Of a stretch of 64,000 nucleotides of DNA, positions 36,685-44,250 are shown one piece after another. The stretch covers positions 496,001 to 560,000 of the forward strand of contig NZ_VOQF01000001.1 of NCBI RefSeq assembly GCF_007994985.1. The letters run 5' to 3'. Both the position numbers and the translations under genes were made by a program. Origin of the DNA: Metabacillus litoralis (GTDB lineage Bacteria > Bacillota > Bacilli > Bacillales > Bacillaceae). The notes under the pieces are model-generated. The model was given only the letters and a program-made list of their open reading frames with translations. It did no database searches and had not been told where the DNA came from. Numbering within the stretch: position 1 is the stretch's first letter; the number at the start of each line of letters is the position of its first letter.

Positions 36685-36735
36685 TGGGTTAACCTAGTGG
36701 TTAACGGTTTGGTGCAATTCCAGCCTAGCCCACCA
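36685..36735 (+). pseudogene. tRNA-Gln-like remnant lacking an anticodon arm
   Basis: TGGGTTA at the 5' end pairs with TAGCCCA near the 3' end (seven pairs, one G-U), and a terminal CCA follows directly. Before it, TTTGG-TGCAATT-CCAGC has the shape of a T-arm with a seven-base loop. The middle, CCTAGTGGTTAACGG, resembles part of a D-arm. Bacillus tRNA-Gln has TGGGCTA..TAGCCCA and CCAGC at these places. At 51 bases it lacks an anticodon stem-loop and cannot be a working tRNA. It lies in the leader of the SASP gene. Confidence 0.45.
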
Positions 36736-36765
36736 AAAACTATTCATGAAGGAGATGCATTTATT

Positions 36766-36972
36766 ATGGCAAGCAACAGTAATAACAACAATTCTAATCA
36801 ATTAGTGGTACCTGGTGCTTCTCAAGCAATCGACCAAATGAAGTATGAAATCGCTAATGAATTTGGCGTAAATCTTGGTGGAGAAACAACATCTCGTGCA
36901 AATGGATCTGTAGGTGGAGAAATTACTAAACGTTTAGTTTCTTTTGCAGAACAACAATTAGGTAGCAAATAA
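36766..36972 (+). CDS. Alpha/beta-type small acid-soluble spore protein
   Basis: A 68-residue SASP that saturates spore DNA, protects it from UV and heat, and is degraded at germination. The family core is evident: [16 protein letters not shown] contains the site cut by the GPR protease (after the Glu of EIA), followed by [22 protein letters not shown], the second conserved block. AAGGAGATG precedes ATG 36766; the longer frame from 36697 has no ribosome-binding site and runs through the tRNA-like remnant. A strong terminator follows. Expression in the forespore (sigma-G) is expected from the family. Confidence 0.95.
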
Positions 36973-38305: not shown

Positions 38306-38334
38306 AGACGTGAATTCTTGTTGAAATTCACGCC
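38306..38334 (-). terminator. Terminator of the aromatic-like operon
   Basis: On the minus strand GGCGTGAATTTC pairs with GAATTCACGTC and is followed by TTTTTTTT, 25 bases after the last small gene. Confidence 0.85.
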
Positions 38335-38358
38335 AAAACTTCACTTAATTTTTTCAAT

Positions 38359-38499
38359 TTAAGGAATCTGGATATTTAATGATTTAAGCATAAAATAAAC
38401 AGCTTTTTTAATTTCTTCTGGTTGATTACTCCCATTTAAAGCACAGTTAACCTGTTCTTTGAACGTCTCAACAATTTCCTTAATCTCATTTTTGTTCAT
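38359..38499 (-). CDS. Small protein (46 aa), paralogue of its upstream neighbour
   Basis: A 46-codon ORF whose ATG lies inside the 3' end of the preceding gene (14-base overlap in another frame). The end, IKKAVYFMLKSLNIQIP, aligns with IQAAVFEMIEGLGMQIP of the 64-residue neighbour, so the two arose by duplication. Both begin with a short charged helix (NEIKEIVETFKEQV here). There is no membrane segment or known domain. It is the last gene of the operon and is followed by the terminator. A role as a small subunit or adaptor of the enzymes upstream is only a guess. Confidence 0.68.
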   Translation of the reverse strand: MNKNEIKEIVETFKEQVNCALNGSNQPEEIKKAVYFMLKSLNIQIP

Positions 38500-38680
38500 T
38501 ATCATTTTTCATCCTTAATAGTTTTTCGTTAATTTTATCTAAAGGAATTTGCATACCTAAACCTTCAATCATCTCAAAAACAGCAGCTTGGATTTGTTTA
38601 CTTGTTGCTCCTTGTTCTTTTAATTCTTTAATTTTAGTTGATAAATTACCGACTGCTTCATTTAATTTTTTATTGTCCAT
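38486..38680 (-). CDS. Small helical protein (64 aa)
   Basis: A 64-residue, probably all-helical protein (MDNKKLNEAVGNLSTKIKEL, then SKQIQAAVFEMIEGLGMQIP, then KINEKLLRMKND). GAGGTG precedes the ATG, and it starts 12 bases after the aldolase gene, so it belongs to the operon. Its C-terminal half is repeated in the overlapping next gene. I know no family for it. Its tight coupling to the two aromatic-type enzymes suggests a partner or regulator of them. Confidence 0.75.
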   Translation of the reverse strand: MDNKKLNEAVGNLSTKIKELKEQGATSKQIQAAVFEMIEGLGMQIPLDKINEKLLRMKNDNEQK

Positions 38681-38692
38681 TCGTTCACCTCA

Positions 38693-39454
38693 TTATTGAT
38701 CTAAAATAGATCGTATACTAGCACAAAGCTTTTCAGGATCTTCGTCTTGAAAAATATTACGGCCAATTGAGATTCCATTTGCACCTGCACTCAAAGCATC
38801 ATCAATCATAACGAGTAGGTCATCATTAGATGAAAGTCTCTCTCCACCTGCAATCAATACAGGAATTTTCACTCCTGATACTACTTGAGCAAATGATTCT
38901 GCTGAGCCACTGTAATTAACTTTTACAATGTCTGCACCTAATTCTTCTGCAACTCTTGCAGCATGCCTTATTCTTTCTGGATCAAATTCATGTTGTTTAG
39001 AACCATCACGTACATACATCATTGCAAGTAGTGGAATGCCCCATTTATCACACTCTTCTGCAATTAAACCTACATCTCTTATTTGTTCTGCTTCAAATGG
39101 AGAGCCTAAATTTACATGTGTCGAAATTGCTGTCGCACCTAAGCGAATTGAATGCTCTACAGATGATACAACTTCCTTTCTGGTTGATTGTGATTCTGGA
39201 GCAAGTGCTGTAGATGCTGATAAATGAACAATTAACTCACCCTTATTAGAGCCAATTGAATCTGTTAGATAACGAACAAGACCTTTATGCACAACAACAG
39301 CATCTGCTCCTCCGGCAAAAACAGCATTTACTGTGTGATTAATTTCAGATAATCCTTTAACTGGTCCAATCGTAATTCCATGATCCATTGGAACAATTAA
39401 TAATTTGTCGGAATGATGATATAATTTTTTTAAACGGATTTCTTTACCTGACAT
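38693..39454 (-). CDS. Class I aldolase, ADTH synthase-like (AroA'/GriI family)
   Basis: A 253-residue class I (Schiff-base) aldolase barrel of the archaeal FBA/DeoC-like family. Diagnostic features are VPMDHGITIGP (D24), MMYVRDG (Tyr147) and the Schiff-base lysine K178 in ADIVKVNYSG, then the phosphate-binding ends IAGGER and GISIGRNIF. In methanogens the homologue MJ0400 makes 2-amino-3,7-dideoxy-heptulosonate from aspartate semialdehyde and a deoxy-keto sugar phosphate; in Streptomyces GriI condenses aspartate semialdehyde with DHAP. The gene follows a dehydroquinate synthase II homologue by 20 bases, which is the same pairing. Plain fructose-bisphosphate aldolase activity is less likely in that context. 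Confidence 0.88.
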   Translation of the reverse strand: MSGKEIRLKKLYHHSDKLLIVPMDHGITIGPVKGLSEINHTVNAVFAGGADAVVVHKGLVRYLTDSIGSNKGELIVHLSASTALAPESQSTRKEVVSSVEHSIRLGATAISTHVNLGSPFEAEQIRDVGLIAEECDKWGIPLLAMMYVRDGSKQHEFDPERIRHAARVAEELGADIVKVNYSGSAESFAQVVSGVKIPVLIAGGERLSSNDDLLVMIDDALSAGANGISIGRNIFQDEDPEKLCASIRSILDQ

Positions 39455-39474
39455 AGTGAAAACTCCCCCACTTT

Positions 39475-40581
39475 TTATCTCTCAATAATTGTTTCGCTAA
39501 CTTTAACTCCTACATGTCGACCAGGCTCACAAATATAAGACAATAACTCATCACCAGGTTGAATTGTAGAAGCATTTCTTGGTTTTCCATCTGCACTCAT
39601 GATTCGGATATGCCAATCATCCTGCACAATCACATTTAACTCACTTTCTCCCACTTTTCCTTTGATCAGTAACATTGGACGTACTTCAGTTTTAATTCTT
39701 CCTACTGTCAATACACGAGTTTCACCTTTTGTATTAACACATAGAACTTTATCACCTGCTTTTAAATCACTTAAATACTCAGCAGCATCATCTGGTTGCC
39801 ACACATAAGAGTGAACTGCACCTGCATTTACTCGGAATGGTCTTAAATTCATATAAGGAAGATAGTGAGTTTCCGAACAAACAAAAACTCCTCCACCTGA
39901 TGTTGAACCAATAATCATTCCTTCGTCCTGGTTCATAATACCAGTCGTATCAATACAAGCTCGAACACCCATACCAGCATGAACAACCTCTGTTACGACC
40001 ATTGGATGTAATTCTAAGCTCGGTAATGCTTGCTTTGACATAAATGCAGTTAAACGTTTAACTTCATCAATATCAGTTGTTGCAAATAATACGCCATCAC
40101 TACCTTTTTCAAGTGTTCCATAAGCAATTTCAGTATCAATTGCTGTATTTACAGCTCGTAATAAAACTGTGTTACTTTCTTCTAATCTAGCAATGATTAG
40201 TTCCAGTGGAATATTTGTTGGTAGATCAAAGTCTACTGCAGCAAAGTCATACTCACTAGCTTCTCTTGAGCAGCGTTCTAACATTTCACGGTCATCAACA
40301 GAATAAAAAATACAAGTTTTGTAGTTACGTTTTTTCGCTTCCTCTAATAATGATTTATTGTCAGAAAAAACAACATCTTCTGAAGGTACATCTTCTAGTT
40401 CACCAACATTTGTTACTTCTGTAATAAAAGACATTTTTTGTGGAAAATACCCCTCTTGACGTTGCTGAACTGTTACTAACGCTTTATCAATAGGAGAGTG
40501 ATTAATTAACTCCCAAACATCCATATTTTCAACTGAAACTCCTCTACCGTCATACCAAACTTGTCGTTGTTTTTGTTGCAT
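39475..40581 (-). CDS. Dehydroquinate synthase II family enzyme (AroB'/GriH-like)
   Basis: A 368-residue protein of the archaeal dehydroquinate synthase II family. Hallmarks are MNQDEGMIIGSTSGGGVFVC, then ETHYLPYMNLRPFRVNAGAVHSY, and a C-terminal beta barrel ending YICEPGRHVGV. In archaea (MJ1249) it deaminates ADTH oxidatively with NAD and cyclises it to 3-dehydroquinate; the GriH homologue instead yields 3-amino-4-hydroxybenzoate. The family is unrelated to ordinary AroB. AAGGGAG precedes ATG 40581, so the longer frame from 40605 is not used. It is 21-45 bases downstream of the amidohydrolase gene. Which product is made here cannot be read from sequence. Confidence 0.88.
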   Translation of the reverse strand: MQQKQRQVWYDGRGVSVENMDVWELINHSPIDKALVTVQQRQEGYFPQKMSFITEVTNVGELEDVPSEDVVFSDNKSLLEEAKKRNYKTCIFYSVDDREMLERCSREASEYDFAAVDFDLPTNIPLELIIARLEESNTVLLRAVNTAIDTEIAYGTLEKGSDGVLFATTDIDEVKRLTAFMSKQALPSLELHPMVVTEVVHAGMGVRACIDTTGIMNQDEGMIIGSTSGGGVFVCSETHYLPYMNLRPFRVNAGAVHSYVWQPDDAAEYLSDLKAGDKVLCVNTKGETRVLTVGRIKTEVRPMLLIKGKVGESELNVIVQDDWHIRIMSADGKPRNASTIQPGDELLSYICEPGRHVGVKVSETIIER

Positions 40582-40626
40582 ATTAATTTCTCCCTTCAAT
40601 TTCACCTAGATAATAGTTATCACTCT

Positions 40627-41379
40627 TTAAATTTTTAATAATTGCTTTATATTTCCACTTACGATATCTTCACGTTCACGATCAGTAATATTTAGCTTCA
40701 TAATTTTTTCCAGTTCTATTCCTGGATGTGATAATGGATATTCTGATCCAAAAATCACTTTTGAGGAGCCTACTTTTTTAACTGACTCCTGTATATGAAG
40801 GAAATTACCTGTTGATGTTTCTAAAAAAAAGTTATCTAACGATTTTGCAGCTTCTAATGCCTCTTGGTCTGCTGGACCAAATCCCATATGACCAATAATA
40901 AATTTAGTTTTTGGAAATTTCTTTGCAAGCTGAATAAACTTTGCAGTTGATGCACCTGGGCTATATACAACATGTGTGTAAAATGGAAAATCATAATCGC
41001 CACAAAGAGACGCTAAGCTTGTAATTCCTTTTGATGAAAACGAAAACTGATGTGATAACGGAGAAAGCTTTAGTCCTTTAAATCCTTGTTTTTTCCCCTT
41101 TTCAAGCTGTTGCTCTACATCTTTGTCATGCGGATTAATACAGATAAAACCATGGATGTTCTTATTTTCATTGCATGCTTTTTCAATATATTGATTATCT
41201 GGAACAGGATTATCCGGTTTTGCTCTACCTGTGATATACTCAGTCATTTTACGTACATCTAGCATTGCCCCAGGAACTGCCACTACCTGATCAATACCAA
41301 TCTCGCTCATTAAATTCTGATATAATTCGATGTTCCCATACTCTGTATTAGATAAATGAGCATGTGCGTCAATAATCAT
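40627..41379 (-). CDS. Amidohydrolase family 2 metalloenzyme (ACMSD-like)
   Basis: A ~250-residue metal-dependent TIM-barrel enzyme. The metal motif IDAHAHL follows the start, the barrel continues with GFKGLKLSPL, FYTHVVYSPG, IIGHMGFG and the late Asp/Glu region FGSEYPLSHPG. This pattern is that of the amidohydrolase-2 group, which includes ACMSD and other decarboxylases or hydrolases of aromatic and ring compounds. Within this operon it could process the product of the dehydroquinate synthase-like enzyme, for example by decarboxylation or ring hydrolysis (inference). AGAGGTG precedes ATG 41379; a GTG at 41388 is too close to it. Confidence 0.85.
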   Translation of the reverse strand: MIIDAHAHLSNTEYGNIELYQNLMSEIGIDQVVAVPGAMLDVRKMTEYITGRAKPDNPVPDNQYIEKACNENKNIHGFICINPHDKDVEQQLEKGKKQGFKGLKLSPLSHQFSFSSKGITSLASLCGDYDFPFYTHVVYSPGASTAKFIQLAKKFPKTKFIIGHMGFGPADQEALEAAKSLDNFFLETSTGNFLHIQESVKKVGSSKVIFGSEYPLSHPGIELEKIMKLNITDREREDIVSGNIKQLLKI

Positions 41380-41439
41380 ACGTTTCACCTCTTTTTCCTT
41401 GCTCTTTATAATTTCTTATAGTTTGGTTTGAAAGCTCGA

Positions 41440-43386
41440 TTATTCAAATGTCATACCCCGAGCTTTTAATCTCGCTACGTACACTGATTCAGAATCTTCT
41501 TTATACAATGTACTCCATGTTTTTTTAGCAAGATCTACCAGACTAGTTTTTTTATATAAATGACCTAAATCATATAATAATTTCAAGTATTGCTCTCTTG
41601 TTATTGGAGGGTTTTCAAGATTTTGTTCATATGCTGATTTTACAGACTTAAAGTCTTTAATTGCTTTATCACTTGTATGAAAAAAACCTTCAGGAAGAGA
41701 TTGATAGATAACTCCTCTTAGATATTTCAACTCTGGATTATCTGATTGAATCGATTCATTCAACAACTTTATACCCTGTATGGTATCCTTGAACATTTCC
41801 TGTGGTTCATTAGCGAACTTACCCATTAAGGCTACAGATGCTGCATAATAGGTTTGGGCTGTTTCGCATTCAGGAAATGCGTTTCTTGCTTTTTCCCATG
41901 CTTCTAAACTTTGAATAGCTGCATCTTTGCATCCCTTAGCACCCATAAGATGCATTTCCTTGGCTTTCTCATATAATTTATCTTTTGTTGCCACAGTAAG
42001 TGTTCTTAAATCAATTTTTTTATACGCATAAATTTCCTTTTTCTCTTGCAATTTTTCTTGTATGTCGTTAGAAGGATTAAGGTTATTTAATTTCGCCCAA
42101 GCTTCTTTTGCTTTTTCTATCATACCTAGCTTTTCATAGGCAATACCGAGGTCAAACAATAATTGATGGTGAGTCTCTGAACCCTTTTCTTGAAGAAATT
42201 CCTGATTTTTCATTAAGCATTCGATATCTGCACTAGCTATTGCAGCTCTTCTAAAAAATAATTCAGGCAATCTTAAACTCTGTCTTGAACGAATAAGTTT
42301 CAATTCATTAAGATCTGGATGTTCAGTGATCAAACTATCCATCGCTTTCATTGACTTTATAGCTGCTCCAAACATTTCATAGGTGTTAACAGAATCTCTA
42401 CCAAGCATAGATTGTAAATCGATATAATACATTTCTACTTCTGGGGATGCATTTGTTAAAACAAACACCTCAAAAAAGTCTAACGCTTCTTTTACTTCAT
42501 CTGATGTTCCATTTAGAGCTTTGCTATAAATAGAGATAGCTTCATCTGTCATCCCTTCTGTCTCTAATTGACCATCAATATCTTGTTCACTATCTAATTC
42601 TGTATCTTTTATTGATGGATTGCTTAACATTTTGAATGCTTTAAGTTTCTCTTGATAATTCTTTGCAATATCTGTCTGATTTGAACGTTTATAAACTTCT
42701 ACTAAGTTTTTTAAAATTTCAGCATACTCATCTCCATTTAATATTGTTGAGTTCTTTTCATAAACTTCTACTAAATAAGAAAAATCTTCAATTGCTGTTT
42801 TAGAACGTTGAAAATAAAGGTCAGGAAGTCGATAAGCAACATGCCCTCTTAAAAATCTAGCAACAGTACAATCAGAATCTGATTCAATTACCTCATCTAA
42901 TAGGTTTAAGCCTTCTAAAGCAAATTTCATCTTATCTGTTACACTATGTGCATCTCTGGCTATTAAACTTGTTGCACTTCCAAAATAAGCTTTAATCTCT
43001 TTATGATTAGGGTGCTGTTCATATAACTTTTTTAATTGATCATATGCATTTTTAACTGATTGTTTATTTCCTTTTACCCCAGCATCATGTTCTTTTATAG
43101 CCTCGGCTAATACTCCTGAGTTACTATCAGTTGGATTGTCGTTTATTGTTTTTTTCTGCTTGCTTAATCTAGATGTTAATTTATTTGCATTTTTTAAAAC
43201 TCTATTATTATGGTTCTTTGTACTTATTGGTCTTTTTTCTTCTCCTAAAGAAGTAGTTGAATTAACATCCTGTTTGTAGTGAAATTTTTCCTGCTCTTTA
43301 TTTAGGTTATTTGCCAATCCTGCTTCTAATAAATAAGGATTAGCTTTTGCTAATTTTTCTATTAGCTTTCTTTTTTGTAAATTCAT
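41440..43386 (-). CDS. Tandem helical-repeat protein with three ~170-aa modules
   Basis: A 648-residue soluble helical protein. After a basic, low-complexity N-terminus (1-90) it has three copies of one module. Each has a block like YFGSATSLIARD, then ~35 residues later RGHVAYRLPDLYFQR and A-IEDF, then a TPR-like hairpin (LG-AYEKLG, KA--AW--L). Module one is about 95-260, two about 275-450, three about 465-640. The second and third are diverged (SRQSLRLPELFFRR; RGVIYQSLPEGFFH). The same module makes up the whole preceding gene, with which it overlaps by ATGA, so the two are translationally coupled. No enzyme motif is present. Scaffold or protein-binding function is inferred. Confidence 0.82.
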   Translation of the reverse strand: MNLQKRKLIEKLAKANPYLLEAGLANNLNKEQEKFHYKQDVNSTTSLGEEKRPISTKNHNNRVLKNANKLTSRLSKQKKTINDNPTDSNSGVLAEAIKEHDAGVKGNKQSVKNAYDQLKKLYEQHPNHKEIKAYFGSATSLIARDAHSVTDKMKFALEGLNLLDEVIESDSDCTVARFLRGHVAYRLPDLYFQRSKTAIEDFSYLVEVYEKNSTILNGDEYAEILKNLVEVYKRSNQTDIAKNYQEKLKAFKMLSNPSIKDTELDSEQDIDGQLETEGMTDEAISIYSKALNGTSDEVKEALDFFEVFVLTNASPEVEMYYIDLQSMLGRDSVNTYEMFGAAIKSMKAMDSLITEHPDLNELKLIRSRQSLRLPELFFRRAAIASADIECLMKNQEFLQEKGSETHHQLLFDLGIAYEKLGMIEKAKEAWAKLNNLNPSNDIQEKLQEKKEIYAYKKIDLRTLTVATKDKLYEKAKEMHLMGAKGCKDAAIQSLEAWEKARNAFPECETAQTYYAASVALMGKFANEPQEMFKDTIQGIKLLNESIQSDNPELKYLRGVIYQSLPEGFFHTSDKAIKDFKSVKSAYEQNLENPPITREQYLKLLYDLGHLYKKTSLVDLAKKTWSTLYKEDSESVYVARLKARGMTFE

Positions 43387-43952
43387 GATGATTCACCTCC
43401 ATTTCGTTTAGCATTTTCAACAAGAGTCTTATATTTTCTATTATTTTCTTTCAACAATTGATTCCAGGCCTGATCTGCTTTCTCAAATTCACCTAGTGTT
43501 TGATAGCATTTACCTAGGTTTAATAGAATTTCACAAAATAGATTTTTCGTTATATTTTTATTCCTACTTTTATACTCACTGATAAGGAATTGAAAATCTT
43601 CAATTGCAGTTTTTGTTCTTTTGAAATACATCTCAGGCAATCGAAAAGCTACATTACCTCTTAGTAATCTAAATTCATAATTTTTCGGCTCTGCCTTAAC
43701 AGCTTTATCTAATTCTTTAAGACCCCTTTTTGCTAGATTCATTTTTTCAATTAAATCTATATGATCTTTCGCTACTAAAGCAGAGGCACTTCCAAAATAT
43801 GCTTCAATTGTTGGATTATTGATTACATCTGTTTTAAGTTTTTTTAGTATCGCATGTGCCTTTTTTGCTGCTTCTTTATCACCATCTATGGCTTTTTGAT
43901 GAAGTGCAACTGCTTCTTTAAAATCTTCTTTCCAATCTTCTTTAATGCTCAA
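43383..43952 (-). CDS. Single-module helical-repeat protein, first gene of the operon
   Basis: A ~189-residue protein consisting of one copy of the module found three times in the next gene (AYFGSASALVAKD, RGNVAFRLPEMYFKRTKTAIEDF, then LGKCYQTLGEFEKADQAWNQL). The longest frame begins at ATG 43973, but AAGGAGG lies inside that extension, 11 bases before TTG 43952, and nothing like a ribosome-binding site precedes 43973. TTG is therefore the probable start. The stop overlaps the next start (ATGA). As first gene of the seven-gene unit, it is likely translated at the highest level. The function is unknown. Confidence 0.8.
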   Translation of the reverse strand: MSIKEDWKEDFKEAVALHQKAIDGDKEAAKKAHAILKKLKTDVINNPTIEAYFGSASALVAKDHIDLIEKMNLAKRGLKELDKAVKAEPKNYEFRLLRGNVAFRLPEMYFKRTKTAIEDFQFLISEYKSRNKNITKNLFCEILLNLGKCYQTLGEFEKADQAWNQLLKENNRKYKTLVENAKRNGGESS

Positions 43953-43973
43953 AATTTTTTGAACCTCCTTCAT

Positions 43974-44250
43974 AAAGCAACTATGAACTCTTTAACGTTT
44001 CATAGTTTTAGAATACATTTACACATTATGTAAAAGATAGAAGATGGTGATAGACGATAATGGAAAAGAATTTAATTGATAATAGAGTCTACATTAAAGG
44101 TGCTTTATTCAATGTTTTCTCCTATGAAAAAATAGATGTGTGGATGAAAATACTAGTAATATAAAATGTGCTATATACAAAATAAACTCAGCAGTCTTAT
44201 ATTAAGTTTTTCTTTAGTAAAGAATGTCGAAGTATTTCTGCACAAAAAAG
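43974..44250. promoter_or_regulatory. Presumed promoter region of the seven-gene operon
   Basis: About 280 bases between the operon and the convergent-side terminator of the DUF421 gene. It is AT-rich, and CATTTACACATTATGTAAA (about 44017-44035) is a partial dyad near the expected promoter. A 34-codon plus-strand ORF at 44060 has only a weak ribosome-binding site and is not called. Confidence 0.4.

Follow-up and report, generated by a model that had tools for sequence, protein, structure and literature searches.

What would a bacillus make with a class I aldolase and a dehydroquinate synthase II (DHQS-II)-like enzyme whose genes lie in one operon with those for an amidohydrolase, two repeat proteins and two small proteins? 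This question is raised by a locus of Metabacillus litoralis located in a window of 64,000 nucleotides, which corresponds to positions 496001-560000 of contig C1 (NZ_VOQF01000001.1) of the 4.88 Mb genome G000. On balance, the analysis favours a split benzoxazole pathway of the closoxazole type, of which the operon would encode the half that makes the precursor and closes the ring, with the repeat and small proteins as accessory components and with expression in the mother cell. With good confidence, the genes can be assigned more generally to a pathway of aryl-acid coupling and benzoxazole formation. The enzyme set is known; new here are the conserved repeat-protein pair and the small proteins that are joined to it, and in M. 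litoralis the cluster is split.

The operon comprises seven open reading frames (ORFs) on the minus strand of the window (43973-38359), as given by the ORF list and its translations. It begins with the repeat proteins T196 (43383-43973) and T648 (41440-43386), continues with the amidohydrolase AH (40627-41388), the DHQS-II-like synthase DHQ (39475-40581) and the class I aldolase ADH (38693-39454), and ends with the small proteins s64 (38486-38680) and s46 (38359-38499). For DHQ the ATG at 40581 was taken as the start, the ORF list having a GTG start at 40605. T196 and T648 overlap by 4 bases, s64 overlaps s46, and the remaining intergenic gaps measure 12-51 bases. The strongest terminator-like site is an intrinsic terminator on the minus strand at 38334-38307 (GGCGTGAATTTCAACAAGAATTCACGTC, then a T run), one of four such sites in the region compared to a shuffled mean of 2.4. 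A terminator-like site at 44267-44250 lies downstream of the gene preceding the operon, and the transcript therefore most likely starts shortly before 43973. The ORF coordinates and the terminator scan thus bear out the original prediction, made from the DNA letters, of seven ORFs in this order with a single terminator. Moreover, the same gene set in the same order was found in other genera and in Clostridia, so that the operon is not due to chance; across relatives, the enzyme genes keep the company of the repeat and small proteins.

The closest described counterparts of the enzymes are the closoxazole clusters of Clostridium cavendishii (clx) and Pyxidicoccus fallax (pfx), in which, according to excerpts of PMC12118335, an ADTH-like aldolase and a 3-amino-4-hydroxybenzoate (3,4-AHBA) synthase make 3,4-AHBA, while a pair of AMP ligases and an amidohydrolase of the condensing kind lead to a benzoxazole, the ring being closed on an unstable ester in the case of P. 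fallax and, as reported, on an amide in that of C. cavendishii. The five enzyme families match ClxA-E/PfxA-E, as presented in these excerpts, one for one. All five are encoded by the M. litoralis genome: three in the operon, while the two PaaK-like AMP ligases, LigA and LigB, are absent from it and form a pair some 133 kb off, at C1:398.9-401.5 kb. In the operon, ADH is a candidate ClxE/GriI-like, ADTH-synthase-like aldolase, DHQ a putative ClxB/GriH-like 3,4-AHBA synthase and AH, by its gene context, a putative ClxD/PfxB-like ring-closing (condensing) enzyme. The enzyme content is hence of the closoxazole type and the logic probably is as well, while the product may be another than closoxazole itself. 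In the proposed route, ADH and DHQ would convert aspartate semialdehyde and dihydroxyacetone phosphate to 3,4-AHBA, the ligases would activate aryl acids and couple them as an unstable ester (or amide), and AH would close the ester to the benzoxazole. T196, T648 and the small helical proteins would be accessory, most likely as a scaffold which unites ligase and AH and lets the ester be caught ahead of its rearrangement to the amide. Expression would probably take place in the sporulating mother cell.

Three points set the loci of the M. litoralis type apart from the closoxazole clusters in gene content and ligases: TPR-like repeat proteins and small helical proteins are added, some species have the ligases at a separate place, and residues of the ligase pocket differ. 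Four loci, L042-L045, are here labelled closoxazole-like, which is our own label, their product being predicted. Two of them (L042 in G062, L043 in G052) are second clusters (DHQ ~42-43%) of genomes from the genus Metabacillus that also encode a DHQ of the M. litoralis type, and all four have an ABC-2-like permease gene in common, as judged by eye. A similar ester-then-cyclise logic with PaaK-like ligases is described for the nataxazole/AJI9561-type proteins NatL2, AjiA1 and NatAM, the NatL2/NatAM route using 3-hydroxyanthranilate; NatAM, however, is longer (~494 aa), has two domains and carries Asp345 at the zinc, where AH of the window has Glu216 (excerpts of PMC7204872). The original prediction had considered the gene combination to be undescribed. 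This stands for the repeat and small proteins, as no paper tying TPR-like or small helical proteins, or sporulation, to benzoxazole clusters was found in the searches made of open-licence PMC papers, but it fails for the enzymes, whose set is that of clx and pfx.

The splitting of the pathway becomes apparent from the 16 loci obtained by a scan for DHQS-like proteins with one genome per species. Both ligases share one stretch with AH, DHQ and ADH in ten of them, where LigA (~444 aa) follows the long repeat protein and LigB (~417 aa) follows AH. The LigA of M. litoralis is 70% identical to the operonic LigA of L006. Among Bacillaceae, a DHQS-like protein occurs in 15 of 80 genomes, all of the genus Metabacillus, and 14 hold the type found in the window (window type). 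Eight of these 14 were read: G054, G057, G062 and G067 have operonic ligases, and G000, G053, G058 and G071 are without them. In the latter three, LigA lies elsewhere on the same contig with an adjoining LigB-like ORF, so that the five closoxazole-type families are not clustered in one locus in M. litoralis and three sister genomes. The CxCG motif is present in 33/33 LigB and 40/44 LigA sequences. As side observations, an amidase-like gene is inserted between LigA and AH in L012 (2277-3680) and L018 (2498-3901); L018 is labelled Actinobacteria, but since the amidases of L018 and of L012 from Peptococcaceae share 87% identity, the bin may be mislabelled.

For the distribution of the repeat proteins (T), a profile was built from 15 T196-type proteins and searched in 398 Bacillota genomes, of which 32 matched at E<=1e-6. 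Each of the 18 genomes that hold a window-type DHQ (identity 52-100%) has T, which is absent from G272, the sole closoxazole-like genome among the 398 (DHQ 42%). In the other 380 genomes T was found in 14 at 1e-6 and in four at 1e-40; G117, G271 and G463 carry it at the stricter threshold together with LigA and AH. The match in G225 (5.5e-43) has unrelated neighbours. Ten further genomes gave weak matches (E from 8e-21 to 7e-34); the neighbourhoods read, those of all but G182 and G245, number eight and look unrelated. On the level of loci, 30 of 37 window-type loci fetched via DHQ hold AH, and T is present in 30/30 of these and in 0/4 closoxazole-like loci. These counts leave out the second copies L015, L029, L046 and L047, three of which hold AH, all three with T, as well as L062, L063 and L074-L078, which have AH and T and were fetched via T; with the latter the count is 37/37. 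L017 has T but no AH in its stretch, and L014, L016, L026, L027, L028 and L041 have no T in the stretch but T elsewhere in each genome. T directly precedes LigA in 25 of the 33 window-type loci holding T, LigA and AH, and it directly precedes AH in the four loci without ligases. Handover of the ester by a scaffold would explain why T tracks the module of ligase and AH and not the precursor genes.

Both T196 and T648 have weak Pfam TPR matches; T196 narrowly passes TPR_19 (26.2 vs 25 bits) and T648 falls just below the TPR cut-offs. T196 consists of one repeat unit, as seen in its ORF, the family alignment, the AlphaFold2 (AF2) model and the fold matches, and T648 of three, since three of its stretches match the T196-type profile. 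The AF2 model of T196 is all helical with nine helices (predicted local distance difference test score, pLDDT, 90.7) and resembles a TPR-like helical superhelix. Its fold matches are general TPR only (consensus TPR, MamA), two of them at E<=0.001. Both s64 and s46 belong to a loosely conserved family of small proteins, whose alignment of 26 rows has 2 invariant columns; AF2 predicts three helices for s64 (pLDDT 82.9). Members of the family were found in 15/15 Bacillaceae loci and in 21/30 DHQ-fetched loci with AH, counted with a profile built from these very loci. Altogether, a scaffold role of the T proteins is plausible, although somewhat doubtful. The M. litoralis genome additionally holds an orphan pair of T-repeat genes (L061:8415-10686, on contig C23), with no pathway enzymes within the 19.5 kb read; before it stands TCTAGCAC...CATAGATTA, which closely resembles the operon promoter, with one mismatch.

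This promoter was recognised as a block on the minus strand at 44023-44086, TCTATTA-N25-TCTATCACC...CATAATGT, which combines a SigK-like promoter (-35 and -10 elements) with a direct repeat, TCTATYA-N25-TCTATYA, that lies upstream and overlaps it. The block was first noticed through its conservation before T196 and occurs in 9/9 aligned Bacillaceae loci as TCTATNA-N25 (N26 in L008)-TCTATCAC, 16 bases, CATAANNT; this alignment omits six of the 15 Bacillaceae loci (L005, L006, L007, L009, L010 and L013), in which the start of T196 and its upstream DNA are not clearly in the stretch. Elsewhere in the M. litoralis genome it was found only before LigA, where, as in G053, the same arrangement has a 17-base spacer and CATATTTT. 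The LigA promoters of G058 and G071 (L080, L081) have not kept the upstream repeat, but only the TCTATCAC...CATA part, TCTATCAC-N16-CATAAAGTA. A search of the M. litoralis genome for TCTATYA-N23-27-TCTATYA gave 8 matches compared to 3 in a reversed control; just two have the N25 form, at the operon and LigA promoters, and the other six are N23 or N24. The pattern TCTATCAC-N14-17-CATANNNT has 2 genome matches, both at these same promoters, and 4 in the reversed control, so that this count alone is not significant.

SigK promoters are characterised by AC in the -35 and CATAnnnTA in the -10 element, with a fixed gap between them. Judged by these letters, SigK-like -35 and -10 elements are present in 9/9 operon and 4/4 LigA promoters, the full -10 element being found in all four LigA promoters, while its last base is G instead of A in all nine operon promoters. 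A looser SigK-like box has a chance rate of about 0.04 per 150 bp. Element sizes of SigK promoters and a gap of 14-16 are given in excerpts of PMC517825. In one clostridial family, whose loci are related, the SigE-like pattern ATA-N13/14-CATAA is present in 6/6 intergenic regions before DHQ (background 0.03 per 250 bases; shuffled mean 0.23 of 6). The clostridial loci yielded no clear promoter box for T, and neither did the DNA before most non-divergent clostridial clusters; sigma-70-type sites in the region are not above shuffles (25 vs 26.8). Whether the pathway is under sporulation control is, from these comparisons, evenly balanced. Some spore-related genes were seen in passing: a gene resembling those for small acid-soluble spore proteins (SASP) near the operon (window 36697-36972, by eye); a SASP gene at L024:8049-8240 (Pfam) in a ligase-pair locus with two Coat_F genes nearby (L024:12335-12787); and two small Tyr/Met/Pro-rich proteins by the cluster of L063 (10736-11255), spore-coat-like by eye and without Pfam match. 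Pfam gave no match for five of the ten neighbour proteins.

Several observations weigh against the proposed pathway. Spo0A is present in 18/18 window-type genomes but also in 345/398 overall, so that the distribution alone does not show a link to spores, and an argument for sporulation from distribution was set aside as not decisive. What the promoters show comes from sequence comparison only, and relatives or loci from one genus are not independent. AH was assigned to the ClxD/PfxB type by its gene context and by an identity of 42-45% with the AH of L042-L045. G117, G271 and G463, the genomes with T, LigA and AH, have no DHQS-II match at E<=1e-40, and 3,4-AHBA may therefore not be the only input. 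The ligases provide points on both sides. In favour of the pathway, the best solved relative of LigB is 9s3l (E 3.2e-61), followed by AjiA1 and NatL2. The PDB names 9s3l only 'Phenylacetate-CoA ligase'; we infer that it is ClxA because S118, P120, K140, Y218, Y219, T222 and N226 fall at the ClxA numbers in excerpts of PMC12519233. Against it, LigA resembles ordinary PaaK more closely than 9s3l/ClxA. In ClxA, Asn226 is the donor contact, which touches the para-hydroxyl of 3,4-AHBA, and Lys140 is the modelled acceptor contact (excerpts of PMC12519233). At the N226 position, in counts that include near-copies, 20 of the 29 window-type LigB sequences have Thr, 4 have Ser, 2 have Asn and 3 have other residues, and closoxazole-like LigB has Asn in 4/4; at the K140 position, Ser or Ala is found in 29/29 and Ser in 4/4, respectively. 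LigA has Lys at the K140 position (38/38 and 6/6) and Asn at N226 in 0/38. In M. litoralis, LigB has Thr (226) and Ser (140), and LigA has Val (226) and Lys (140). Neither ligase holds the whole ClxA pocket, and the substrates and the product may therefore differ from those of closoxazole.

These points lead to the rival explanation that survives best, although it is clearly less probable than the benzoxazole route: instead of closoxazole itself, the same enzymes would yield a different coupled product, either oligomers linked as amides or esters or a hybrid that incorporates an aryl acid taken up from outside, and T would bind or carry this product. The replacement of N226 in 27/29 and of K140 in 29/29 window-type LigB would fit this, as would the three T-LigA-AH genomes without a DHQS-II match. 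Importer-type ABC genes occur in eight clostridial loci; by eye, they are of the branched-chain amino acid type in L014, L031, L032, L062 and L063, and NitT/TauT-like binding proteins are found in L025, L030 and L077. Furthermore, according to excerpts of PMC12519233, some trimer arises with ClxA, and with its K140A mutant oligoamides do. On the other hand, AH shares a stretch with T and LigA in the 33 window-type loci that hold LigA and AH, which suggests that ring closure is kept. In L062 (G117), T, LigA, AH and LigB stand with an aldolase in a genome without a DHQS-II match at E<=1e-40, and the aromatic input may differ there.

A second rival departs from the amidohydrolase, which the original prediction took for an ACMSD-like enzyme modifying the product. 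The operon would make 3,4-AHBA, and AH would decarboxylate or hydrolyse it or its amide to an aminophenol or simple aromatic, the distant ligases being unrelated. AH belongs to Amidohydro_2 (Pfam, 2.1e-26) and is weakly similar to gamma-resorcylate decarboxylase (E 0.0048) and to ACMSD (E 0.31 or worse). However, H9, H11, H139, H167 and E216, which comprise the metal residues, are present in 40/40 aligned sequences of both clades, in an alignment which leaves out L003, L004, L046 and L047 and still contains near-copies. Where an ACMSD-like decarboxylase should carry its catalytic Asp, close to the C-terminal end of the barrel, AH thus has Glu216, whereas the solved relatives 3cjp, 3s4t and 3nur, one of them named gamma-resorcylate decarboxylase, have Asp at this position (ACMSD itself stands outside the alignments). 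Moreover, the ligases lie inside the operon in many relatives, the promoter block is common to both loci in split genomes, and the five-gene set equals that of clx and pfx. An ACMSD-like decarboxylase is therefore disfavoured and the second rival quite improbable; AH is likelier a condensing, ring-closing enzyme. The AH tree sets the window type apart from L042-L045 as a clade of its own (97/97 branch), with one label change and 7/41 rows in no group; the DHQ tree has three label changes, several very long branches and 1/43 rows in no group, both trees leaving out, in addition to the second copies, the fragments L016 and L041.

The precursor enzymes belong to families with known roles. MJ0400 and MJ1249 constitute the archaeal early shikimate route, and GriI/GriH and BagB/BagC form 3,4-AHBA in Streptomyces. 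The aldolase passes the ADTH synthase equivalog TIGR01949 (308.1 vs 299.45 bits) and has MJ0400 as its nearest solved structure. DHQ matches Pfam DHQS (PF01959, 2e-99) as the sole such protein of the M. litoralis genome. It clears only this cut-off and fails those of all seven NCBIfam DHQS-II-type models (e.g. 287.6 vs 375, 257.8 vs 485 and 251.7 vs 392), by which a dehydroquinate-type identity is disfavoured. That the operon is a second, archaeal-type entry into the shikimate pathway can be dismissed as very improbable: the protein families are those of MJ0400/MJ1249 and the aldolase is closest to MJ0400 among solved structures, but model scores and gene context differ, the linked genes are those of ligases and an amidohydrolase, and the genome encodes an ordinary AroB and a DAHP synthase. 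These two enzymes had been expected elsewhere in the genome, and since they were found there, the pair is not the only shikimate entry and the operon probably makes a special aromatic compound. With the gene order kept in other genomes as well, the proposal withstands both refuting conditions that the original prediction had named. The proposal of a GriI/GriH-type pair with such a product was therefore broadly right. The BagB/BagC model cut-offs are missed. The Streptomyces plasmid homologues found (13 records) are 33-42% identical to DHQ; their neighbours differ from those of the operon in two regions read, and no annotated repeat protein or amidohydrolase was found in the four regions read. 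Two side observations concern the relatives. In L010 (7126-7889) the aldolase gene is broken into two ORFs (199 and 56 aa), by a frameshift or an assembly error. Ten loci (L017, L025-L032 and L035, L029 being a copy of L017) have a protein family of 146-199 aa near DHQ and ADH, with only a very weak match to the carbohydrate-binding model CBM_4_9_1 in the two members tested.

That enzymes form benzoxazoles was discovered recently, and in the best-studied cases the pair of ligase and amidohydrolase has to cope with an ester prone to rearrangement in water. A repeat protein kept with ligase and AH across many genera would be a first candidate for holding this ester intermediate. At its most far-reaching, and more speculatively, the finding may represent a sporulation-controlled benzoxazole pathway that extends through Bacillota from Metabacillus to Heliophilum, in which dedicated TPR-like proteins and the small proteins would form a metabolon or spore-surface carrier, and the mother cell would thereby provide the spore with an aromatic benzoxazole that absorbs ultraviolet light or acts as an antimicrobial. 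If true, the link to spores would provide a natural time and place of expression for cryptic clusters of this kind and could explain their silence in ordinary culture.

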